Assembly: GCA_016187945.1 (NCBI GenBank)
Contig: JACPIT010000005.1
Coordinates: forward strand, 744,001-808,000
DNA length: 64,000 nucleotides
Direction: 5' to 3'
DNA from: Opitutia bacterium
GTDB lineage: Bacteria > Verrucomicrobiota > Verrucomicrobiia > Opitutales > Opitutaceae
Part shown: in pieces, positions 927 through 27,797 of the stretch
How the letters are laid out: every line of letters starts with the position of its first letter
How positions within the stretch are numbered: position 1 is the stretch's first letter
Made by a program: the position numbers and the translations under genes
Notes under the pieces: model-generated
The model's input: only the letters and a program-made list of their open reading frames with translations
Database searches by the model: none
What the model was told of the DNA's origin: nothing

Positions 927-3900
927 TCAGATGTGGAGCGCCGGTAAGCCCCTAACGATCTTCATCGTTTCCAGGCTCACGGTGACAACCCGAAGAAAAA
1001 GCTCTAAGGGATACTTGGCGTTTCCCATCGTTTCCGTGGCCCAGAGATTGGCGTCGTTGACGATGCCACTGTCTTTGTCGGTGGTCACGGCTTGGCGTTC
1101 CATCACCCATTCGAGGGCTGGTTTTCCGTTCACCTCGTATTCATAGGCATCTAACGGGATGTCACGAATGGTGATATGCTCATTGTAAATTACCGTGGTC
1201 TTGTCGGCGATGGATTTCTTGGTCTCCGGGTCGCTGGTCTTGGCAAATTTCATCTTCGTCACCCGGTAGTCAGCCCCTGTTAGGGCGGCGCGGGGCACTT
1301 TGCCGGTGTCGAGCTTGGCACCGGGGTAGACGTCTACGGTTTCGTAGTGCAGGTGCCAGTAGGCCAGTTCGCGCCCGGCCTTAGAATAGGCGCGAAAGTC
1401 CGCGGCGGTCTTAACGGCAGGGATGCGCGGTAGTTCTTTGCCCAAGTTGTCGGCATAGCGGCTGCGGTAGTCGGGCGAATGTAGCAGCCCGTAGATGTAG
1501 TAAAAGAGATCTTCCTTGGTGATCGCCTCGCCTGGATACGCGGCTTGAAAATGCGCCAGCCCTGCGTCGGTGATAGCATCGCGCCGCGTGTAGGTGGGCT
1601 CGGTCGCGCCCTTTCCATCGTCGAAGAGTCCGCTGTCTTCGGTCTCCCCAGCCTTTTCGTAGAGGTAAAGGGGGAAGCATTGGCCGCCACCGTCGGGAAG
1701 AAGGCAAACCGGGTTGGCGATCATCAGCGCGAACTGGCCTTCACCGCGCCAGTTTCCCTTCACCATAATCGCGAGGTTCTCAGAGTCCGGCTCCGGATAG
1801 AGCCGAAGCATCTGGTAGACCATCTCGTTGAACGACCGATCAAAATACAACCACTGCTTTGTGAAAGGGCGGTAAAGCGCCCGCGTGATTCGCTCCGAAT
1901 GAAATGCGAACCGCTTGTCTTTTGCGAAGTCAGCCTTCAGCGCCCTCGTCCAACTGATTCGCGAGGGATCGGTGTTAATGAATCCATCGACCACTTGCTC
2001 CCGCGCCTTCTTTTCAAGACCTCCGTGAGCCGAATTGAACCGATTGAGTTCAGAATCATAAAACTCAATCATCCGGCTCATTGAGCCGCTTATCTGCGAC
2101 TTCGACATGTTGAAGCACCAGGTATCCCGGCCTGTAGCAACACCGAGCGAGAAGTTGTCGAACACCTTCTTCCCGTCGCCCTTCTTGTCTCCCATCGCAA
2201 TGAAGTTGCTGAAGCCTTCGTCACGCTGCTTTAGCCAGTCGCCGTGAGCGTCGGGAGTAACCGGTGTCCATCCGTTGATGGCGCTGATTCCATCCGCGCT
2301 CGCAAAGGTCCGAATGCGTTCCAGCTTCTGTTCGCGACTGAGATAGTCGCCAATGTCGTGGAAATGAATCTGCCCGTAGTGCTTGGCGCTTGGATTTTTA
2401 ATTAGGAGGGAAATCGCAATAGGTGCGCGACTCCCGCTGCCAAAAATCTTCCCGCCTTCTCGGCGCGAGATGTCGCCGGAAGTTCGTTGGTTCCCGCGGA
2501 GGTGGAAGACGTAGATGCTGCTGAACTCTTCCGCGAGACACTTGCGCATCCCGTCCGAAGAGGTGGACTCAAGAAAGCCGGCGTTCGTGACGAAGCCGAT
2601 AATGCCGCAGTTTCCAACTCGGTCCGAAGCCCAGCGAATCGCGCGGATGTAGCTATCGTAAAGATTCTTTACGGAGGTCATCGTCGAGCGCGAGGCGTAG
2701 GTCGCTTCGATCCGCCCATCGAGATGCGGGTATCCGACGTTCTGGTTGTTGTCGTTGGCGCTCTCTTGCCCAATCGAATACGGCGGGTTCCCCATGATGA
2801 CCCGGATATCGAGCGCCTTCTGGCGCTTCCGGCGGGCGCTGTTGTGTTCCATGAGGTCGCTGACAAGGTCGCCCTTTTCATACATTTGGAAGGTGTCGGT
2901 GAGGCAGATTCCCTCGAAAGGCTCATACTTCCCGCCGACGATGGCGTGATAGACGGCCTCGATATTGATGGCGGCAATGTAGTAGGCGAGGAGCACGATC
3001 TCATTGGCATGGATCTCGTGCCGGTATTTGTGCGGGAGTTCTTCGGGCCGGATGAGGCCGCTCTGGAGGAGGCGAGTGATGAAGGTGCCGGTGCCGGTGA
3101 AGGGATCGATGATGTGGACGCCTTTGCTCCCGAGGGTCTGGCCAAACTCGGATTGCAGGAGGTCATTGATGCTGTGGATGATGAAATCCACGACCTCCAC
3201 GGGGGTATAAACGATGCCGAGGCGCTCGGTCATCTTGGGAAAGGCGTTGCGGAAGAACTTGTCGTAGAGTTCCACGACAATCTTCTGCTTGCCTGCAGCG
3301 TTATCGATGCCGTTCGCCCGCATCTTCACGCTGGCATAGAATTTTTCCAGCGTCCCGGCCTCCTTCTCAAGACGGTGTTCTTGCAGCACGTCGAGAACAT
3401 GCTGCATTGCGAGCGATACGGGGTTGTTGCTCGCGAAGCTGTAGTCGCTGAAAAGCGCATCGAAGACCGGCTTCGTAATCAGGTGCTGCGCGAGCATCTC
3501 GATCACCTCAGGGTCCGTGATTGAATCGTTCAGGTCATCACGGAGTTCGTTGGCGAAATCACTGAAAGCCTTCGCTTCCTTCACGTTCTCCGGATTGGAG
3601 ACTATCTGGGTGATGCGCGCGATGTGCGTCTGAGCAATCTGCGCGATGTCCTTAGCCCACTCGTCCCAGTAGCTGCGGTTACCGCACTTTTTGACGACAC
3701 GAGCGTAGAGGGCTTTTTCAAGCTCACCGACATTGAACTGAAGTTGGGCCTGCTTCCCGTAGGTGGCCTGCTCCGGCTCACCGACCGTGTGCTGGCCGAC
3801 ACCGGTCTTGTTTTTCGCGCCACTCTTGGACGTGGCTTTGGTCTTCCGCTCAATTTTGTCGGTGATGGAGATTACCTCCATCTTGCGGGTGTCCTTACCG

Positions 3901-5864
3901 ACGAGATCCAGCTTGTTAATGAACGCGTCAAACTGGTCATCGTGCGAACGCAACGCCTGCAGGACTTCCCACACGACCTTGTAAACTTTGTTATCGTTCA
4001 ACGCATCGGCCTCATCCATTCCGGCCGGGATCACGACAGGCAAGATGACATAGCCGCGTTTTTTCTTACCGGCTGGGTCCTTTCGCATCACACGCCCGAC
4101 AGACTGAACCACGTCCACTTGGGAATTGCGGGGCGTCAGGAATAGCACGGCATCGAGAGCGGGAACGTCCACGCCTTCTGAAAGGCAGCGGACGTTGCTC
4201 AGTATGCGGCAGGTCTCGGCTGGCGGTTCAGACTTGAGCCAAGCGAGCCGCTCTTCTTTGAGCGACGCCCCCATGGAGCCGTCCACATGGCGGGCCTCGC
4301 AAAGCAGTTTGCTGGCCTGCGCCTCGGGCTCCTTCTCTCGGTAGGCCTTCACGACCTCCGCAAACATGGCTGCAATCTCCTTGGAGCTGACGCGGTGGTG
4401 CTTCGCCCCGGGAATGCGATCAATCACCTGGCAGAAAGCGACGGCCCGACGCATCGGATCGGCATCGGTGGCGTCCTGGAGGCCTTGCTTAGCGAGCGCC
4501 TTCCAGCAACCGACGATGCGCGCCGCATCGTCGACTTTGAGTTGGTTATTTTCGTCCTTCAGCAGGTTTTGCAGACGCTCGCTGACATGGTCGGCGCTGA
4601 TGGTAAGAACGATGACCTTGTAGTCGCAGAGCAGATCAAGCTGCACCGCTTCGGAAAAAGTGATGACATGGAGCTGGTCGCCGAATTTTTCGACATCATC
4701 CATCGAGCAAATCTCAGCGTTCTCTTTTTCCGCGGTGGCCTTGGCCGAGTCCCCATAGATGCGGGGCGTGGCCGTCATGTAGAGGCGCTTCTTGGATTTT
4801 AGGAAAGCAGCGTCGTGAACCTTGACGAAATTGCTCTCTTCTTCCCCTTCGAAAGTTGCACCTGTCGTGCGGTGGGCCTCGTCGCAAACAATGAGATCAA
4901 ATTCAGGTAGGCCGTGCGCCTGGGCCCCGGCCACGACTTCAATCGAATGGTAGGTTGAGAATACGACGTTGAGATGAGCCTTGTCCTGACGCTTCAGGAA
5001 CTCGACCGCGAGGCGCTTGGGGTCCGTTGTGGCAGGGTAACGCAGCTCGTGGGCAAACGTGGTAACGGTGTCTTCGTCACGTTTGCGCTTTTTTCCCACT
5101 TCCGAATCCGAGCACACGGCAAAACTGTGGAGCGGTATCTGGCTTTCCTGCGTCCACTCCGTGAGCGATTGCGAAAGCAGCGAGAGCGAGGGGACGAGGA
5201 AAAGCACGCGGCCACCAGCCCCGGCCATCTCCTCAGCGACCTTCAAACTCGTGAAGGTCTTTCCGGTGCCGCAGGCCATGATGAGCTTGCCGCGCTCACT
5301 TTTGGAGAGTCCGGCCAGGACATCGCGGATCGCGCGCTCCTGATGACGGCGAGGCGTCTTCTTCTGCTTTAGAACCGGCGCCTTGGCTGACTGATAGCGA
5401 GACCAGTCGATCTGGCTGTTCTCCAAATCGTAGAGGTCGAGCTTCGTGACCGGTGGGTTCTGGTCGAAAAGCGCGAGATCGGCGTTCTCAGTCCAGTCGT
5501 TCGTGGTTGAAACGATGATACGGTGCGTGAACGGCTTCTGTCCCGATGCCGTGAAGAAGGAATCGATGTCTTCCTTCCGAACGCGATAATCCTCGTCGTA
5601 GAACTTGCATTGGATGGCGTGAAACTCGTCCGTGCCGCGCGTCTGAGCGACCAAGTCGATTCCAGTGTCGCGCGCATCAATCCCGCGTTCCTTTGCCCAG
5701 TCCGAATACTTCCAGATTTTCTGGTAGAGATCGGCATAAACCGGCTCCGTGCGGAGGTAGGTGACAATCAGCTCTTCGAAGTAGGTCCCTTTTTCGCGTT
5801 CGGTTTGAGCAGCCTGACGGAAGTGATTGAGAAGAGCTGAAAGTGGAGAAACTGGCGCAGCCAT
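927..5864 (-). CDS. Type ISP restriction-modification-helicase protein
   Basis: This 1645-aa polypeptide combines nuclease, DNA translocase, N6-adenine methyltransferase and target recognition, as in LlaGI/LlaBIII-type ISP enzymes. An Mrr-like nuclease core is seen near residues 66-87 (a GID motif, then QCK). A Walker A motif ACGTGKT lies near 197-203, followed by a CDEAH box near 327 in a superfamily 2 helicase. The methyltransferase has motif I DPFTGTGTF near 918 and the catalytic NPPY near 1025. The ~450 C-terminal residues would hold the specificity domain. No separate subunits are needed. The gene is 50 nt downstream of, and co-oriented with, the WYL regulator gene, suggesting one transcript. 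All core motifs look intact. Confidence 0.92.
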   Translation of the reverse strand: MAAPVSPLSALLNHFRQAAQTEREKGTYFEELIVTYLRTEPVYADLYQKIWKYSDWAKERGIDARDTGIDLVAQTRGTDEFHAIQCKFYDEDYRVRKEDIDSFFTASGQKPFTHRIIVSTTNDWTENADLALFDQNPPVTKLDLYDLENSQIDWSRYQSAKAPVLKQKKTPRRHQERAIRDVLAGLSKSERGKLIMACGTGKTFTSLKVAEEMAGAGGRVLFLVPSLSLLSQSLTEWTQESQIPLHSFAVCSDSEVGKKRKRDEDTVTTFAHELRYPATTDPKRLAVEFLKRQDKAHLNVVFSTYHSIEVVAGAQAHGLPEFDLIVCDEAHRTTGATFEGEEESNFVKVHDAAFLKSKKRLYMTATPRIYGDSAKATAEKENAEICSMDDVEKFGDQLHVITFSEAVQLDLLCDYKVIVLTISADHVSERLQNLLKDENNQLKVDDAARIVGCWKALAKQGLQDATDADPMRRAVAFCQVIDRIPGAKHHRVSSKEIAAMFAEVVKAYREKEPEAQASKLLCEARHVDGSMGASLKEERLAWLKSEPPAETCRILSNVRCLSEGVDVPALDAVLFLTPRNSQVDVVQSVGRVMRKDPAGKKKRGYVILPVVIPAGMDEADALNDNKVYKVVWEVLQALRSHDDQFDAFINKLDLVGKDTRKMEVISITDKIERKTKATSKSGAKNKTGVGQHTVGEPEQATYGKQAQLQFNVGELEKALYARVVKKCGNRSYWDEWAKDIAQIAQTHIARITQIVSNPENVKEAKAFSDFANELRDDLNDSITDPEVIEMLAQHLITKPVFDALFSDYSFASNNPVSLAMQHVLDVLQEHRLEKEAGTLEKFYASVKMRANGIDNAAGKQKIVVELYDKFFRNAFPKMTERLGIVYTPVEVVDFIIHSINDLLQSEFGQTLGSKGVHIIDPFTGTGTFITRLLQSGLIRPEELPHKYRHEIHANEIVLLAYYIAAINIEAVYHAIVGGKYEPFEGICLTDTFQMYEKGDLVSDLMEHNSARRKRQKALDIRVIMGNPPYSIGQESANDNNQNVGYPHLDGRIEATYASRSTMTSVKNLYDSYIRAIRWASDRVGNCGIIGFVTNAGFLESTSSDGMRKCLAEEFSSIYVFHLRGNQRTSGDISRREGGKIFGSGSRAPIAISLLIKNPSAKHYGQIHFHDIGDYLSREQKLERIRTFASADGISAINGWTPVTPDAHGDWLKQRDEGFSNFIAMGDKKGDGKKVFDNFSLGVATGRDTWCFNMSKSQISGSMSRMIEFYDSELNRFNSAHGGLEKKAREQVVDGFINTDPSRISWTRALKADFAKDKRFAFHSERITRALYRPFTKQWLYFDRSFNEMVYQMLRLYPEPDSENLAIMVKGNWRGEGQFALMIANPVCLLPDGGGQCFPLYLYEKAGETEDSGLFDDGKGATEPTYTRRDAITDAGLAHFQAAYPGEAITKEDLFYYIYGLLHSPDYRSRYADNLGKELPRIPAVKTAADFRAYSKAGRELAYWHLHYETVDVYPGAKLDTGKVPRAALTGADYRVTKMKFAKTSDPETKKSIADKTTVIYNEHITIRDIPLDAYEYEVNGKPALEWVMERQAVTTDKDSGIVNDANLWATETMGNAKYPLELFLRVVTVSLETMKIVRGLPALHI

Positions 5865-5914: not shown

Positions 5915-6814
5915 TTACGACGACGGTCGCTCATATCCAGGCGCGAGCACGGCGTTATCCACGTCGTGAAGAGCCATCAGATTCCGCAAGCAGAGAGGAA
6001 ACAGATCGAGGCGCTGCGTCGGAGAGCAATCGACGCTCCAGAGACGAAGCACATAGCCGGCAAGTGCCGCGCGCACCCTGAGGACATGCACGTCGTCAGA
6101 CATCTGAAACTCCTGCGCGATCATGGCCTTCTTCTCCGGCGACGCCTTGGGATGCGGAATCAGCTCCAGCTTGAGCATCCTGTTCCACTCATCGTCGTTC
6201 TCCTTGTCTTCTACCGGTAGGGGCTTCGCATCCCACACGACCTCGGCGTGTTTGATTCGATTCACGATGAAGTCGCAAAAGATCCCTTTTCGCCGGCAGT
6301 AGGCCCGAACGAGCCACTTTAGCCCCGTCCCGACAAAGCTAAACGGAACGATTTCTCGCGGCCCATGATTGCCGCTATCCGACAGGTATTCGATTCGAAG
6401 GACGGCTTTCTGGCAGATTGCACGGGAGACTGAAGCCAGCACGTCGGCCGAGGGTGCCTGTAGCCGACTGGGCAATTCGCATGGCACGAGTGATTCCGGC
6501 TCCGTGCCAAAGTCGTTTCCAATCCCATGCACCAAGGCTCGTAAAAGCTGCTTGGGATCAATGTTTTTTAGGTAATTAAGGGCGAAGGATTTAGAGATTC
6601 GGTAGATTTTCGTGCCCGTATCGAACTCAAGGTTTTCGCCCGCTTCGTCACGGTAGATCGCCAAGTCACGGGTCGCGGCAGCTTCGCTGATACCGAAGCG
6701 CTGGATCAAATCAGCCCGAGAAATTTGCCCTGTGAAATATAGCCTAAACTCCAGATAGTTAAGACGTTCTCGTTGATTTTGGGAATGTTCAGCCATGGGG
6801 TGATCATCACTCAC
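5915..6814 (-). CDS. WYL-domain transcriptional regulator (BrxR/CapW-like)
   Basis: The ~299-aa protein has an N-terminal winged helix-turn-helix (about residues 10-70, with a FGISEAAATRDL recognition-helix-like segment). A WYL-type ligand-binding region lies around 125-200 and a C-terminal dimerisation-like domain follows. Length and layout match the BrxR/CapW repressors found upstream of BREX, CBASS and other defence loci. The GTG at 6814 gives the full length; an in-frame ATG at 6796 is an alternative. It precedes the type ISP gene and is divergent from the ubiquitin-like operon, so it could control both from the palindrome-bearing gap. Its regulatory role is inferred. Confidence 0.85.
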   Translation of the reverse strand: MSDDHPMAEHSQNQRERLNYLEFRLYFTGQISRADLIQRFGISEAAATRDLAIYRDEAGENLEFDTGTKIYRISKSFALNYLKNIDPKQLLRALVHGIGNDFGTEPESLVPCELPSRLQAPSADVLASVSRAICQKAVLRIEYLSDSGNHGPREIVPFSFVGTGLKWLVRAYCRRKGIFCDFIVNRIKHAEVVWDAKPLPVEDKENDDEWNRMLKLELIPHPKASPEKKAMIAQEFQMSDDVHVLRVRAALAGYVLRLWSVDCSPTQRLDLFPLCLRNLMALHDVDNAVLAPGYERPSS

Positions 6815-6917: not shown

Positions 6918-7091
6918 ATGGCTACCAATCCTCCCAAAGGCGACGGACACCGTAATGGTCCCGTCACCGGCAGAACTCAGACCCAGACTCCTTCCGGTAA
7001 CTGGGTGAAGCGCGACACCGGCACCGGCCGGTTCATGGATGTGAAGACATCCGATGCCAAACCCTTCAAGGGCGTCCGCAAAGAGAAGTAA
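6918..7091 (+). CDS. Small basic protein (57 aa) heading the ubiquitin-like operon
   Basis: This short gene encodes a Gly/Thr/Lys-rich 57-aa protein containing NWVKRDTGTGRFMD and ending FKGVRKEK. It has no Cys, no membrane segment and no signal peptide. The conserved-looking RDT-TG-FMD core matches my memory of a small family often found beside mobile-element genes, but the function is unknown. The next gene begins 11 nt downstream, so it is almost certainly the first cistron of the operon. There is no Shine-Dalgarno motif; instead the leader carries AACCTAAACAG 16 nt before the ATG. Confidence 0.6.
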   Translation: MATNPPKGDGHRNGPVTGRTQTQTPSGNWVKRDTGTGRFMDVKTSDAKPFKGVRKEK

Positions 7092-7102
7092 CCCGTCCCT
7101 CC

Positions 7103-7501
7103 ATGCCGCGATTCGCAGAACACGCAATGCTGGGGTCTGGAGCGGGAGTGATCTTCAGTCTCGTCGTCCAAGGCGCGCGTCAAGCGCCGGCGCCTGTGGC
7201 GATTGATCCCGTCCACACTGGCGTCTGTGCCGTTGCGGGATTTCTCGGCAGCTGCGTTCCGGATAAACTGGAGCCAGCCAGCCGCGTGGTTGGTCCCAAT
7301 CATCGGGGTGCGTTTCACTCCATGTGGTTTCTAGCGCTGACTCTAAAAGGAGCGCATTACTTCGCGACGCTCAAGACCGACAGCGAAGTCGAGCGCTGGC
7401 TCGCGGATGTTGCCGGTGCTTTCTGCGCCGGGGTTAGTTCTCACCTTGTCGCGGACCTATCGACCAGTCGGGGACTCAATTTTGTGGATAAAGGATTCTA
7501 A
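7103..7501 (+). CDS. YdjM/DUF457-like membrane-bound metal-dependent hydrolase
   Basis: The 132-aa membrane protein resembles the LexA-regulated YdjM family of putative inner-membrane hydrolases. Motifs seen are GSCVPDKLEPAS near residue 50, HRGAFHS near 68-74 and SSHLVADLSTSRG near 112-124. The conserved His and Asp residues are the presumed metal ligands. Hydrophobic stretches near residues 8-24, 40-52 and 70-85 fit membrane helices. It lies between the 57-aa gene and the ubiquitin-like gene with short gaps (11 and 25 nt), which places a membrane component in the operon. Substrate is unknown. Confidence 0.7.
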   Translation: MPRFAEHAMLGSGAGVIFSLVVQGARQAPAPVAIDPVHTGVCAVAGFLGSCVPDKLEPASRVVGPNHRGAFHSMWFLALTLKGAHYFATLKTDSEVERWLADVAGAFCAGVSSHLVADLSTSRGLNFVDKGF

Positions 7502-7526
7502 CCTAAAACAGAAAACTAACGTAATC

Positions 7527-7778
7527 ATGAAACCGGAAAAGAAACTCGTCACGATCATCGTCGAGGGCACTCCGCACGAGTGGCCCAAAGAAGAAATCTC
7601 CTATGAGCAGGTCGTCACCTTGGAGGTGCCCGACTATGCTCAGCATCCCGAAATCAATTATTCGGTGAAATATAAGCGCGGTCAGGGCAACAAACCCGAA
7701 GGCATCCTGCTGAAGGGTGAGTCCGTGAAAGTCAAAGAAGGGATGGTCTTCAGTGTTTCAGAAACTGGTCAGTCGTAA
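7527..7778 (+). CDS. Ubiquitin-like (multiubiquitin-family) protein, single domain
   Basis: This 83-aa protein looks like one beta-grasp unit of the Multi_ubiq family. The pattern is VTIIVEGTPHEWP, then ISYEQVVTLE, then YSVKYKRG, and finally GMVFSVSET. Relatives with tandem copies are predicted modifiers in bacterial ubiquitin-like pathways; only one copy is present here. The chain ends SETGQS and lacks a C-terminal Gly-Gly, so either it is trimmed or conjugation differs from the classical route. The reading frame overlaps the start of the E1 gene by 26 nt, which suggests translational coupling. Family call is from sequence pattern only. Confidence 0.85.
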   Translation: MKPEKKLVTIIVEGTPHEWPKEEISYEQVVTLEVPDYAQHPEINYSVKYKRGQGNKPEGILLKGESVKVKEGMVFSVSETGQS

Positions 7779-8934
7779 CGAGGACCTCAGGCGTCTCTAC
7801 GAAAAGGGATACGCCATTGGTTTCGACACGAACAACTGCCTGATCGTGCGGGACGTGTTCTACCTCGACGGCACCCTCGCTCTGCGGCGAGGGGCGATTG
7901 TCGCCAAACTCGTATTCGTGGATAAAGAAGCCGTCCGTCAGGATGACCACCAGGTCTACTTTGCCGGTGAAATGCCACACGGTCTGGATGGGAAACCGAT
8001 CCCGAACTTCGGTGGCGGACCATGTCAGGTCCACCTGTCGGCAGAGAACACCGATGTTGTTGTCCAACGATCGTTTTCAAACAAGCCGAAGAAAACGGGC
8101 GCTTACGCAAATTTCTTCGAGAAGATAGAAAGTTACGTGGATCAGATCGCCGGGCCCGCGATGGCCAAGTTTGGCCGCGATGCCTCGCCCCTGACCCACA
8201 AGGCAAATACCGGACTGCCGCCGGACCCTATTTTCAAGTTTCCCGATACCCTGTCTTCGCGCGCCGGCATCTCGGATCTAAGGGAGATTTTCAAAGATGA
8301 GGTCGTCGCCATCATCGGTGTTGGCGGCACAGGTGCCTATCTTCTGGACCTGCTGGTAAAGACCCCGGTCAAGGAGATCAGGTTCTTCGACCTGGACGAC
8401 TTTCACGTTCACAATGCCTATCGGTCCCCTGGCAGGCTGGAAGAGCATGAACTTGGTAAGCCCAAAACCGAAGTCTATCTGCGTCGTTACGAGGGATTCA
8501 GGCATGGCCTCACGGCCCGGCAACTCCATGTCGGCTCCGATTCCGCCGCAGAACTGGCCGGGGTCACCTTTGCGTTCGTCTCGGTGGACAAGGGGTCGTC
8601 GCGCTCGGCGATTTTCGATGTTTTGATCGCTGGGAAAATCCCATTCATCGACGTGGGCATGGGCCTTAAACGGAAAGGCGATCCGCTCAGCGGCATGCTG
8701 AGAGTGACATACTACCCGGTAGACCGGGCTGAGGAAGTCCGCGCGAAAGGGTATGCTGAGATGTCTGACCCGGCTGATAATCTCTACCGCACGAATATCC
8801 AGATAGGTGAATTGAATGCCCTGAACGCCTGCCTCGCTGTGGTAAAATACAAGGAAGTCCGCGGCTTTTACGGTAACAACGAGCCGATGGACAACTACCT
8901 CTTCGATGTTTCCGACATGAAGATCGCCTCATGA
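7753..8934 (+). CDS. E1-like ThiF-family adenylyltransferase with N-terminal DUF6791-like domain
   Basis: The 393-aa protein has an N-terminal ~165-residue domain resembling DUF6791, then a Rossmann ThiF/E1 domain. E1 hallmarks seen are IIGVGGTG at 187-194, an FDLDDF acidic segment at 212-217, NAYRSPGR with the Arg finger region at 221-228, and SVDKGSSR at 277-284. It should adenylate the C-terminus of the adjacent ubiquitin-like protein. Only three cysteines exist (29, 91, 360); none is an obvious E1 thioester site, so the transfer cysteine is uncertain. The likely start is a GTG inside the ubiquitin-like gene, and the stop overlaps the next gene (ATGA). Confidence 0.88.
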   Translation: MFQKLVSRNEDLRRLYEKGYAIGFDTNNCLIVRDVFYLDGTLALRRGAIVAKLVFVDKEAVRQDDHQVYFAGEMPHGLDGKPIPNFGGGPCQVHLSAENTDVVVQRSFSNKPKKTGAYANFFEKIESYVDQIAGPAMAKFGRDASPLTHKANTGLPPDPIFKFPDTLSSRAGISDLREIFKDEVVAIIGVGGTGAYLLDLLVKTPVKEIRFFDLDDFHVHNAYRSPGRLEEHELGKPKTEVYLRRYEGFRHGLTARQLHVGSDSAAELAGVTFAFVSVDKGSSRSAIFDVLIAGKIPFIDVGMGLKRKGDPLSGMLRVTYYPVDRAEEVRAKGYAEMSDPADNLYRTNIQIGELNALNACLAVVKYKEVRGFYGNNEPMDNYLFDVSDMKIAS

Positions 8935-9323
8935 AGTTTCGCCTGCAACGAGTCGAGTTCATGCCCAAGGAGATGCAGCCAGGCATACTCTACTACGCTG
9001 AGGAGTATGGAGCCGCGGCGCACCTGTGCGCCTGTGGCTGTGGTTCGAAAATCCGAACCCCAATTGACGACGCAGAGTGGTCACTTGAGGAAGGCTCCGG
9101 AGGGCCGTCACTTTACCCGTCCGTGGGCAATTGGCAGAAGCCCTGTCGCTCACACTACTTTATCAGAAACGGGGCGATCATATGGTGCGGCCAGTGGACG
9201 GAGGAGGAGGTCAAAATGGGCCGGCGTCTTGAGCATCAGCGACGCGTCGCTCATTTGGATAGCAAATCTCCACGGAAGAAGCGCCGTCGCTTCTGGGATT
9301 GGATGCGCAGTCTTTTCGACTGA
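8931..9323 (+). CDS. DUF6527-family Cys/His-rich protein
   Basis: The 130-aa protein carries H31-x-C-x-C-x-C37 in the segment AAAHLCACGCG and a second cluster PCRSHY at 71-76, with C86 further on. This strongly suggests a bound zinc ion. The EYG near the first cluster and PSVGNW before the second fit the DUF6527 family that accompanies bacterial ubiquitin-like genes. The tail (residues ~97-130) is very basic, ending RKKRRRFWDWMRSLFD. Its ATG overlaps the E1 stop, so it is co-translated. A role in processing or transferring the ubiquitin-like protein is inference only. Confidence 0.8.
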   Translation: MKFRLQRVEFMPKEMQPGILYYAEEYGAAAHLCACGCGSKIRTPIDDAEWSLEEGSGGPSLYPSVGNWQKPCRSHYFIRNGAIIWCGQWTEEEVKMGRRLEHQRRVAHLDSKSPRKKRRRFWDWMRSLFD

Positions 9324-9536
9324 GCGCAATGGGCGGCCGAGCATATCAGTCCAGAGGACGCTGCGTCCACCGGCGCGAAAGTCATGCCCTACTCTTGCAG
9401 CCGGCAGATAACATTTTGCGCAGCCCTGGCTAAGCTCTTGCCGTCAGCCTTGCCTCCCGTCAAACCTACCTCGGGCCACCGCACGCCGACGTCTTTCGGC
9501 GTATTGCATGTCGCACATGCCCCCGAAAGGATCCCA

Positions 9537-10802
9537 ATGAGCGAACCGACCATAATTTGCCCGAAGTGTCAGAACGAGATTAAGCTGAACGAGTCTCTGG
9601 CCGGCCCTCTCATCGCGTCCACCAGGCGTGAATACGAGGCGCGCCTCGTTCAGAAAGACACGGACATCGCCAGTCGGCAGAAGGCATTGCAAGAGCGCGA
9701 GGACGCGCTCTCCAAAGCGAAGGAGTCCCTCGATAGTCAGGTCGCTGAGAAGTTGAAACTCGAGCGCGCCAAGATTGCCGCCGAAGAATCGAAGAAGGCG
9801 AAACTCGCGCTCTCCACCGACCTTGAACAAAAGGCCAAAGAAATCACCGATCTTCAGGAAGTGCTCAAAGCCCGCGAAGGGAAGCTGGCCGAGGCGCAAA
9901 AAGCGCAGGTCGATTTGATCAAGAAGCAGCGCGAATTGGACGACGCCAAACGAGAACTCGACCTCACCGTCGAAAAACGAATTCAGGAAGGGCTCACCGT
10001 AACACGCCAGCAGGCGAGGAAAGAGGCCGAGGATGAGTTGAAACTCAAGGTCGCCGAGAAGGAGCAAACCATCACCTCGATGCAAAAACAGATCGAGGAT
10101 TTGAAACGCCGGGCGGAACAGGGTTCACAGCAAATCCAAGGCGAGGTTCAGGAGCTTGAACTGGAGGCCCTGTTACGGGCCAAATTTCCCCGCGACACCA
10201 TCGACCCCGTGCCGAAGGGAGAGTTTGGCGGCGATGCAATGCAGCGCGTGGTCGGTCCTCTTGGCCAGGTATGCGGCACGATTCTTTGGGAGTCCAAACG
10301 CACCAAGAATTGGAGTGACAGTTGGCTGGCCAAACTTCGCGATGACCAGCGCACCGCCAAGGCTGAGATCGCCGTGCTGATCAGCCAGGTGCTGCCGAAG
10401 GGCGTCGAGAATTTCGATTTGGTCGATGGCGTGTGGGTGGCGCACCCCCGCGTGGCGATTCCCGTCGGCACCATGCTGCGCCAGTCGTTGGTGGAGTTGG
10501 CAACTGCCCGCCAGGCATCCGAGGGCCAGCAGACCAAGATGGAAATCCTCTATTCCTACCTGACCGGCCCACGTTTTCGCCAGCGGGTGCAGGCCATCGT
10601 TGAGGCGTTTTCCAACATGAAGGAAGACCTCGACAAGGAACGGAAGGTCATCACGAAGCAGTGGGCCAAGCGGGACGAGCAGATTGAACGCGTCATGCAG
10701 GCCACTGTTGGGATGTATGGCGACATGCAGGGTATTGCGGGCAAGACGCTACAAGAAATCGATGGGCTAGAGATTAAGACCCTTGAAGCGCCCGAACAAT
10801 AA
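9537..10802 (+). CDS. DUF2130 family coiled-coil protein, possible nuclease fold
   Basis: I place the start at ATG 9537, preceded by AAAGG, because from here the protein begins SEPTIICPKCQNEI, a small CxxC element typical of this family; an in-frame ATG at 9384 would add unlike sequence. The 421-aa protein has a long charged coiled coil (about residues 25-205). A globular domain follows with GEFGGDAMQRVV and ILWESKRTKNWSDSW. The Glu-x-Lys in WESKR with the upstream Asp suggests a PD-(D/E)XK-like fold, similar in layout to RmuC. It is 11 nt upstream of the OLD gene and likely co-transcribed with it. Confidence 0.8.
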   Translation: MSEPTIICPKCQNEIKLNESLAGPLIASTRREYEARLVQKDTDIASRQKALQEREDALSKAKESLDSQVAEKLKLERAKIAAEESKKAKLALSTDLEQKAKEITDLQEVLKAREGKLAEAQKAQVDLIKKQRELDDAKRELDLTVEKRIQEGLTVTRQQARKEAEDELKLKVAEKEQTITSMQKQIEDLKRRAEQGSQQIQGEVQELELEALLRAKFPRDTIDPVPKGEFGGDAMQRVVGPLGQVCGTILWESKRTKNWSDSWLAKLRDDQRTAKAEIAVLISQVLPKGVENFDLVDGVWVAHPRVAIPVGTMLRQSLVELATARQASEGQQTKMEILYSYLTGPRFRQRVQAIVEAFSNMKEDLDKERKVITKQWAKRDEQIERVMQATVGMYGDMQGIAGKTLQEIDGLEIKTLEAPEQ

Positions 10803-10813
10803 CAACTCCCTTT

Positions 10814-12625
10814 ATGGCCAAGAAAGCAAAAGCTGCCCCCGCACCCGTAGCCGACGCATCGACGGTTCCCGTGAAGCGGCCTCGGGTGCATAAGCTGACT
10901 ATTCGCAATTTTCGGGCTATCGGAAAGGAGCCGGTGACAGTCGAATTGGACGATATTGTCGTTCTAGTTGGCCCCAACAACTCCGGCAAGAGTTCGATTC
11001 TTCGAGCATATCAGGTCGTGATGCTACACGGGTCAAAGGACGGCGAGTTGACGCAAGAAGACTTTCCCGATGGCACTATCGATGCCAGTAACCCAGTTGA
11101 GATTGAACTGGAGACAGTCGTCTATGACGAAAAGGCGCCCGGCGAGAAATGGATACGAAAAGACCCAACTACAGGGGAGATGTTTGTGCGAGAAAAGTGG
11201 ACTTGGGTTGCGCCAGGAAAACCGAAAAGAGTCGGCTGGGAAGTTGGCGAACCAGGCAACTGGCACGCATCGGAGGTGCCTTGGGGGGCACCAGGAGTCG
11301 CTCAGCCAGCTCGTCCAGAACCACATCGGATCGAAGCATTCGATTCTCCGCAGACTCAAACCGCAGCCGTCGTCACCCTTCTTAAAGATGTGCTGAACCA
11401 GCGGATCAAAGAAATGCAGGAAACTCCACCTCCCGCAGACGGAACGACAGTAGAGTCAACCGACTACCAAAAGCTCCTCACATCGGTTTCTGAATTTCAA
11501 AAGAAAGTTGTTGTCGCAGCCAACGAGCAAATAGCGAAGATCGAGACGGAAATGAACACCCTTATCGACCAGGTGTTCCCAGGTCAGGCAGTTCGTTTTG
11601 ATGCACGCCCCGAGGACAACATCGACGATTGCCTGACGTTCTTTCGAGACACTCCTCAACTGCTGATGGGGCCAAAGAACGGCTATCAACCGCCCGTTGA
11701 AAAACAGGGCAGCGGCGCTCGACGCACGTTACTTTGGGCGGCGCTCCGGCTCGTAAAAGAACAAGCTCGAGCGAAGAAAGACGCGACTTCAACACGACCA
11801 CACATCTTGTTGATCGATGAGCCGGAATTGTGCCTGCATCCGAATGCTGTCAGGGAAGCCTGCCGTGTTCTATACGATCTTCCAAAGACTGGAAACTGGC
11901 AGGTAATGGTCACCACCCATTCGCCCGTTTTTATCGACCTTTGGCGCGACAATACATCGATAGTTCGTGTCGAACGACAGCCAAACGGTTCAGCCAGTGG
12001 AACCACGATCTACCGCCCAAAAAGGGCTGCTCTTGATGACGATGACAAGGAGTGCCTCAAGCTTCTCAACCTATGCGACTCCTATGTCGCTGAATTCTTT
12101 TTTGGCGGACGAACTGTTTTGGTAGAGGGCGACACTGAGCACACGGCGTTCACCTACGTGATGCAGCAGGAGCCGGAGCGCTTCAAAGACATCCATGTGG
12201 TCCGTGCACGAGGCAAGGCCACTATAGTTTCATTGTGCAAGGTGCTAAATCAATTTGGAGCCCCATACAGCGTCTTGCACGATAGCGACACCCCAACAGC
12301 ATTCCGAAAGGGGACCGTGATCACGAATCCAGCATGGACGCAAAATCAACGGATATACGACCAAGTTAAGAACTTGGTTGCCACTCGTAAAATCCGACTC
12401 GTTGCTTCCCTCGTAAGTTTTGAGCCTGCGTATTTTGGCACCGATGCTTCAAGCGAGAAGCCAGCCAATGCGTGGACGACACTTAAGGAAAACAAGGATG
12501 CCCACGTAAGGATCGCGACTCTACTGGAGGCTCTAGTAGATTTCACCAAGCCCTTGCCTCAGGGAGCCGTGGAATGGTCTGATCTTGCGGCACTCGAAAA
12601 CCAGTTGCCGAAAAATCCAGCATGA
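10814..12625 (+). CDS. OLD-family ATP-dependent endonuclease (AAA ATPase + Toprim)
   Basis: The 603-aa protein has an SMC/RecF-like ATPase with Walker A GPNNSGKSS at 53-61, Walker B LIDEPELCLHP near 332, and TTHSP near 365. A C-terminal Toprim domain is marked by VEGDTE near 436 and LHDSDTP near 489. This is the class of overcoming-lysogenisation-defect nucleases that includes the GajA-type defence ATPases. No UvrD-like GajB partner follows. Instead the stop codon overlaps the ATG of a methyltransferase stump. Base composition is lower in GC than in flanking chromosomal genes, consistent with transfer. Confidence 0.88.
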   Translation: MAKKAKAAPAPVADASTVPVKRPRVHKLTIRNFRAIGKEPVTVELDDIVVLVGPNNSGKSSILRAYQVVMLHGSKDGELTQEDFPDGTIDASNPVEIELETVVYDEKAPGEKWIRKDPTTGEMFVREKWTWVAPGKPKRVGWEVGEPGNWHASEVPWGAPGVAQPARPEPHRIEAFDSPQTQTAAVVTLLKDVLNQRIKEMQETPPPADGTTVESTDYQKLLTSVSEFQKKVVVAANEQIAKIETEMNTLIDQVFPGQAVRFDARPEDNIDDCLTFFRDTPQLLMGPKNGYQPPVEKQGSGARRTLLWAALRLVKEQARAKKDATSTRPHILLIDEPELCLHPNAVREACRVLYDLPKTGNWQVMVTTHSPVFIDLWRDNTSIVRVERQPNGSASGTTIYRPKRAALDDDDKECLKLLNLCDSYVAEFFFGGRTVLVEGDTEHTAFTYVMQQEPERFKDIHVVRARGKATIVSLCKVLNQFGAPYSVLHDSDTPTAFRKGTVITNPAWTQNQRIYDQVKNLVATRKIRLVASLVSFEPAYFGTDASSEKPANAWTTLKENKDAHVRIATLLEALVDFTKPLPQGAVEWSDLAALENQLPKNPA

Positions 12626-27720: not shown

Positions 27721-27797
27721 TGGCGTCCCCACGGGGATTCGAACCCCGGTTCTCACCGTGAAAGGGTGGTGTCCTAACCGGGCTAGACGATGGGGAC
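27721..27797 (-). tRNA. tRNA-Glu (anticodon TTC)
   Basis: The minus strand folds into a full cloverleaf: acceptor GTCCCC pairs with GGGGAC, the D arm contains GGTTAGGACA, the anticodon loop is CTTTCAC and the T arm contains GGTTCGAATCC. Discriminator G is followed by an encoded CCA (27,723-27,721). The 3' end faces the accessory region, making this the probable integration target of the element. Confidence 0.95.

Follow-up and report, generated by a model that had tools for sequence, protein, structure and literature searches.

A putative mobile three-gene cassette for ubiquitin-like protein conjugation in an Opitutia bacterium

The analysed DNA is a stretch of 64,000 nucleotides from an Opitutia bacterium (contig JACPIT010000005.1, positions 744,001 to 808,000), hereafter called the window. 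Window positions 6918-9323 carry five open reading frames (ORFs) on the plus strand. Three of them form a conserved unit, encoding a ubiquitin-like protein (Ubl), an E1-like enzyme composed of DUF6791 and ThiF domains, and a DUF6527 protein. The other two, a YdjM-like membrane protein gene and a gene for a 57-residue basic protein matching the PADLOC candidate PDC-S38, are local neighbours. The three genes very probably encode a protein conjugation cassette. That this is a mobile Ubl-conjugation cassette of the domain-X form (row 6e of Iyer et al., 2006), acting through the steps proposed below, is the reading we favour with some reserve.

An E1-based scan of genome contigs gave 212 candidates, including 175 relatives, and the best 80 of the 175 were compared together with the window's own locus. 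The named matches closest to the window come from a Verrucomicrobiales bacterium and Candidatus Didemnitutus. These 81 loci are close relatives (E1 identity 49-80%, and 96% for one partial sequence). A Ubl ORF adjoins the E1 gene in 80 of the 81 loci, counting the broken Ubl of L081, and a DUF6527 ORF does so in 80/81, counting the split gene of L029; both exceptions (L072 and L061) are contig ends. The YdjM and PDC-S38 genes occur in only two loci each, the window and L002, and because of this both are regarded as mere neighbours. The more distant loci that were read likewise have the three-gene set, except for L095 (DUF6527 is present though unannotated), L098 (record end, DUF6527 only), L200 (contig end, Ubl only) and L103. 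At L103 (2477-4330), an IS256 transposase apparently interrupts the DUF6527 gene.

The locus L083, a 3.5-kb stretch from a different genome within the genus of the window, has a three-gene block 94.5% identical to window 7412-9323. Both the YdjM and the PDC-S38 genes are absent from this stretch, and no PDC-S38 match was found anywhere in the genome of L083. There the cassette abuts the C-terminal end of a type ISP gene, and about 6 kb of the window is missing, namely most of the type ISP gene, a WYL regulator gene, the S38 gene and most of the YdjM gene. The ratio of nonsynonymous to synonymous substitution rates against L083 is 0.08 for the Ubl, 0.06 for the E1 and 0.10 for DUF6527; the three-gene block is under purifying selection. 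The initial annotation had treated all five genes as one unit with the membrane hydrolase as a partner, and had suggested a survey of their co-occurrence. Such a five-gene system, with YdjM as its membrane effector, would fit the common strand, the small gaps and the recurrence of the set in L002. It is hardly credible against the 2/81 counts and the lack of both genes in the near-identical L083. Among 57 genomes, moreover, S38 and DUF6791 are found in three each and coincide only in the window's own. The survey thus upholds the association of Ubl, E1 and DUF6527, and not that of the other two genes. Two of the three genomes with PDC-S38 lack DUF6791, one of these two being a partial match, and PDC-S38 also matches PHROG 12550.

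The five tightly packed, partly overlapping ORFs of the initial annotation all exist, and its domain calls (YdjM-like, single-domain Ubl, E1 with an extra N-terminal domain, DUF6527) are borne out by Pfam:

6918-7091, plus strand: 57-residue basic protein, no Pfam match; PADLOC candidate PDC-S38, end-to-end match (6e-30); neighbour, not core
7103-7501, plus strand: YdjM-like protein, 132 residues; Pfam YdjM PF04307 (4.3e-10); neighbour, not core
7527-7778, plus strand: Ubl with a single Multi_ubiq beta-grasp domain, 83 residues, ATG start; Pfam PF14452 (2.3e-17), PDB 9cd2 match (8.2e-6)
7753-8934, plus strand: E1-like enzyme, 393 residues, GTG start; Pfam DUF6791 (4.7e-33, residues 10-166) and ThiF (7.3e-11, residues 181-303)
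7753-7778, plus strand: overlap of the Ubl and E1 genes, 26 bp, encoding the Ubl tail (from the sequence)
8931-9323, plus strand: DUF6527 Cys/His protein, 130 residues; Pfam DUF6527 (2.8e-23)

The E1 and DUF6527 genes share 4 bp.

The window Ubl ends in SETGQS, which follows the motif T-x-x-S. Among 101 Ubl genes (the window's own, L001, and the broken L081 set aside), the last residue is Ser in every case and Thr stands at position -4 in 99, while positions -3 (G, D, S, N, I, V) and -2 (Q, E, K, R, A) vary. Since in most loci this tail also covers the start of the E1 gene, codon use was checked to tell which reading frame is selected. The terminal Ser codon is TCA in 70 genes, TCG in 24, TCT in 6 and TCC in 1, changes that are silent for the Ubl and alter the E1 residue. 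Three loci without the overlap also end in TGQS. In seven loci with a JAB-type E1, the end of the Ubl, or of its fused domain, varies.

The E1 motifs noticed in the initial annotation are present. GxGGxG, D213, R224 and K238 are kept in 106/106 E1 relatives (L001, L083 and short pieces left out), D279 in 105 and D215 in 104. E1 alignment A1 consists of P0004 and 73 of the 80 loci; L025, L034, L054, L060, L061, L072 and L081 fall outside 380-420 residues. The top structural matches of the E1 domain are BubCD structures (PDB 9ea4, 9ea5, 9ea8, 9eae and 9eav). No Cys is conserved among the 106 aligned relatives, and Tyr345 is invariant. In DUF6791, H66, S109, K111 and Y128 are kept in all 106 and K124 in 105. 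No JAB domain was detected in the window E1 (Pfam, E up to 1). The seven JAB-type E1s keep E26, H90, H92, S100 and D103, and DUF6791 does not align with JAB. As had been noted before, the cassette has no recognisable stand-alone E2 or deubiquitinase.

From these features the following route is proposed. First, the ThiF domain would adenylate the encoded C-terminal Ser of the untrimmed Ubl; the adenylation residues are conserved, and Ser would be the activated end. Second, the Ubl may pass to an oxygen nucleophile, likeliest the invariant Tyr345 and/or, within DUF6791, the invariant Ser109, with DUF6791 replacing an E2. An oxygen nucleophile is proposed because the E1 has no conserved Cys; both this chemistry and the step as a whole are put forward tentatively, as rather less probable than the conjugation itself. 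Third, the Ubl would be handed to an amine or hydroxyl of a target.

Alternatively, the E1 might serve sulfur or small-molecule chemistry in the manner of ThiF/MoeB or MccB, activating the Ubl without any protein being tagged. The cassette E1 has its fold and nucleotide-binding residues in common with these enzymes. Against this, the Bub E1 ranks first among the structural matches, several Ubl genes have three repeats, and the Ubl has no Gly-Gly end, with which the ThiS/MoaD sulfur carriers terminate. In addition, scanning ten representatives of recurrent neighbours revealed no rhodanese or biosynthetic enzyme and one GNAT acetyltransferase. This alternative is quite improbable.

A second alternative concerns the role of DUF6791. 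It occupies the place of JAB in the E1 fusion, and its S109, K111 and H66 are invariant, so it might be a Ser-Lys type peptidase (S109-x-K111) that processes or deconjugates the Ubl in JAB's stead. Conjugation would then proceed straight from the adenylate or via Cys35 of DUF6527. A JAB-like role of domain X is called a tempting guess by Iyer et al. (2006; PMC1779556). The fixed Ubl end, however, leaves nothing to trim, and the modelled topology of DUF6791 (alpha, four strands, long loop, long helix) looks by eye like that of E2/RWD domains. The peptidase is therefore the less likely role, though better placed than the sulfur or small-molecule chemistry.

Several observations weigh against the proposed conjugation route. 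The structure search covered the E1 beyond residues 1-165, and an hhalign comparison between DUF6791 and seven E2-like sequences gave no match (probability 0.1-0.2). The alignment is gapped around Tyr345. The same genome encodes a MoeB/ThiF-like protein (L209) with its Cys a few residues from this column, and a second ThiF-family protein (L210) that has a Tyr in it. Because of the latter, Tyr345 is no proof of special chemistry, and the confidence given to the oxygen-nucleophile step was lowered. Two JAB-type Ubls (L201 and L207) likewise end in Ser, the others not, so that a lone terminal Ser is not diagnostic and the fixed T-x-x-S is. Among the DUF6527 proteins of phages described below, roughly half lack the predicted ligand C72 (Y in 28, C in 24 and N in 3 of 55). 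Finally, no conjugates, partners or targets have been seen.

For DUF6527, the predicted metal ligands are C33, C37, C72 and H75. They were compared in 112 cassette proteins (without L001, L083 and short pieces, and with both pieces of the interrupted L103 gene), 55 phage proteins and 4 JAB-type proteins; the 112 include five viral loci with an E1, which are listed again as a separate group in the phage comparison. DUF6527 alignment A2 consists of P0005 and 77 of the 80 loci, the sequences of L029, L061 and L063 being short, split or missing. Both C33 and C37 are present in 111/112 proteins of the cassettes, 54/55 of the phages and 4/4 of the JAB-type, and H75 is present in 112/112, 52/55 and 4/4, respectively. 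C72 is found in 111/112 cassette and 4/4 JAB-type proteins, and in only 24/55 of the phage proteins, 29 of which have a His at position 73. Two further residues are H31 (108/112 cassette, 54/55 phage, 0/4 JAB-type) and C35 (111/112, 54/55 and 2/4, in a small JAB-type sample). These are favoured as functional beyond the metal site because they are kept in the cassette and phage forms and less so in the JAB-type. By profile, DUF6527 lies beside four of the seven JAB-type E1s (on the opposite strand in L208), and all four are above the Pfam cut-off.

DUF6527 also occurs in viruses, namely in three GenBank phage records and 56 IMG/VR loci, mostly as proteins of about 95 residues. An E1 is nearby in 4 of the 56 IMG/VR loci, and 52 have no E1 or Ubl within up to 5 kb on each side. 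The viral carriers (L104, L105, L106 and L108-L163) include large Erwinia and Burkholderia phages (249 kb and 322 kb, respectively), as well as near duplicates such as L150/L151 and L143-L145. Any one neighbour family is found in at most 4 of the 60 viral loci, a scatter to be expected of accessory genes. When the tree is rooted on the JAB-type DUF6527, the sequences from phages do not form a single clade, and their common ancestor spans every one of the 112 cassette sequences; the largest clade made up of phages alone has 32 tips (support 0.76). In L125 (1386-1643), a small Cys/His protein just upstream of the phage DUF6527 matches DUF6527 at 17.4 bits against a cut-off of 23.6, and may hint at a wider family.

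In the fourth proposed step, DUF6527, with its predicted metal site and with Cys35 and His31, would remove the Ubl or recruit targets. Its occurrence alone in phages favours an E1-independent activity such as deconjugation, and a deconjugase is a possible, if tentative, assignment. The phage protein could instead be a general metal-binding accessory protein unrelated to Ubl conjugation, which the cassette recruited as a target adaptor. The scattered viral neighbours and the loss of C72 in about half of the phage proteins point that way; the sharing of H31 and C35 by the phage and cassette forms, which sets both apart from the JAB-type, does not. This view has somewhat less than an even chance. 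The most far-reaching version is a full cysteine-free pathway, in which an unprocessed Ser-ended Ubl forms Tyr and/or Ser esters within the E1-DUF6791 protein. DUF6527 (Cys35/His31) would have served as a new type of deconjugase since the loss of JAB, and lone phage copies would strip the tag to evade defence. Taken as a whole, this scheme is improbable.

The cassette is patchily distributed. DUF6791 is found in 3 of the 57 genomes (the window's own and two of its genus) and in 5 of 387 genomes drawn from the phylum, the window's own included. The E1 was found in 115 of 72,556 plasmid records, DUF6527 likewise in 115, and the E1 in none of 50,697 phage records. According to the records, hosts include alpha-, beta- and gammaproteobacteria, Verrucomicrobia, Planctomycetes, Bacteroidetes, Actinobacteria, Bacillota and others. 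A Ubl-based search found the family in 15 of 398 Pseudomonadota genomes, the centre genome included. Fifteen regions were then read, 14 from this search and one from another: seven are DUF6791-type with all three genes, seven have a longer E1 (six recognised by profile, and L207 by eye and aligned afterwards) and one is a truncated contig. Public annotation shows the gene set, since NCBI names the three genes multiubiquitin, ThiF family and DUF6527 in most records read. L082, from the same genus as the window, has a divergent cassette subtype with the Ubl tail TDKS.

The settings comprise recombinases, integrases, WYL regulators, XRE and ImmA/IrrE pairs, UvrD helicases, DarT with a macro domain, and RES with Xre, in loci picked from the matches with no background rate. 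They appear mobile and defence-like, and the surroundings of the cassette in the window look like a defence island. The patchy distribution, the plasmid and mobile settings and the defence-type neighbours are compatible with a defence role, such as the anti-phage one suggested in the initial annotation, and defence against mobile elements is, by a slight preference, the likely purpose of the cassette. UvrD-type helicases adjoin cassette and JAB-type operons alike (L088, L091, L094, L100, L205 and L207); those of L205 and L207 were recognised by eye and have apparent ImmA/IrrE metalloprotease ends. Other features of the window are as follows:

927-5864, minus strand: Type ISP restriction-modification enzyme; PADLOC REase_MTase_IIG (2337 bits)
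5915-6814, minus strand: divergent WYL-domain regulator, PF13280 (2.9e-9); a close relative is also in L002; possibly a controller
9531-10802: DUF2130 protein, before the OLD-family gene
10814-12625, plus strand: OLD-family nuclease; PADLOC Old (2.2e-98)
27721-27797, minus strand: tRNA-Glu(ttc), the sole tRNA found in the window

If the proposed route is true, some 600 residues would suffice for Ubl conjugation, with neither thioester chemistry nor a glycine end, and the cassette would be a minimal system for asking which components the ubiquitin cascade cannot do without. DUF6527 from phages could then be a lead on how the Ubl tagging of bacteria is reversed by phages. The three proteins are all small enough to be tested in laboratory Escherichia coli.

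Among known systems, ThiF, MoeB and MccB differ from the cassette E1, which has the extra DUF6791 domain and a Ubl partner gene and no conserved Cys; the Ubl, ending in Ser (101/101), also differs from ThiS/MoaD. An E1-like adenylation domain is shared with the Bil (6a-6d) systems and the CBASS Cap2 E1-E2 protein, and the PADLOC E1-E2 models match only E1 residues ~165-245. Bil systems, in their usual definition, have genes for a JAB peptidase and a Cys-bearing E2 in the operon; neither was found at the locus by ORFs, Pfam or PADLOC. Nor does the cassette have the JAB of these systems, or a Cys-bearing E2 domain that could be found. The Bub operons (BubA, BubB and BubCD) have a homologous E1 adenylation domain. 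BubCD appears to be a JAB-E1 fusion, judging from D104A, the JAB-type E1 alignment and the structural matches, and ester intermediates have reportedly been described for Bub. The cassette differs in having no JAB, no separate E2-like gene and a fixed T-x-x-S tail. The E2-like protein of Bub is BubB; in the cassette no separate gene lies between Ubl and E1, and DUF6791 may have such a fold. Without JAB it is a sister of the JAB-bearing Bub operons rather than Bub in the strict sense, and it probably works like Bub.

The closest description is the domain-X form of the polyUbl operons, in print since 2006 (Iyer et al., 2006; PMC1779556, Table 1, row 6e). That paper describes a variant with Ubl, E1 and Cys/His protein, predicted to modify proteins, as the initial annotation had also held for these genes. 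Shared features are the Ubl, an E1 with a non-JAB N-terminal domain, a Cys/His metal-binding protein and sporadic distribution. The signature is H-x2-C in row 6e versus C-x2-H in the cassette DUF6527, and section 14 and passages of other sections give no C-terminal motif, no active-site inventory for the domain-X subset and no phage homologue. The T-x-x-Ser end of the Ubl, the E1 without a conserved Cys but with invariant Tyr345 and DUF6791 residues, and the lone DUF6527 of IMG/VR loci are new here. The one to three Ubl repeats of row 6e are seen beside the E1 (Multi_ubiq; 80/81 loci), its uncharacterised N-terminal E1 domain with conserved charged residues corresponds to DUF6791 (H66, K111 and K124), and its C-x3-C...C/H protein corresponds to DUF6527 (C33-x3-C37 and C72-x2-H75 in 111-112 of 112). 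With all three features found, the cassette is a member of the row 6e domain-X group.
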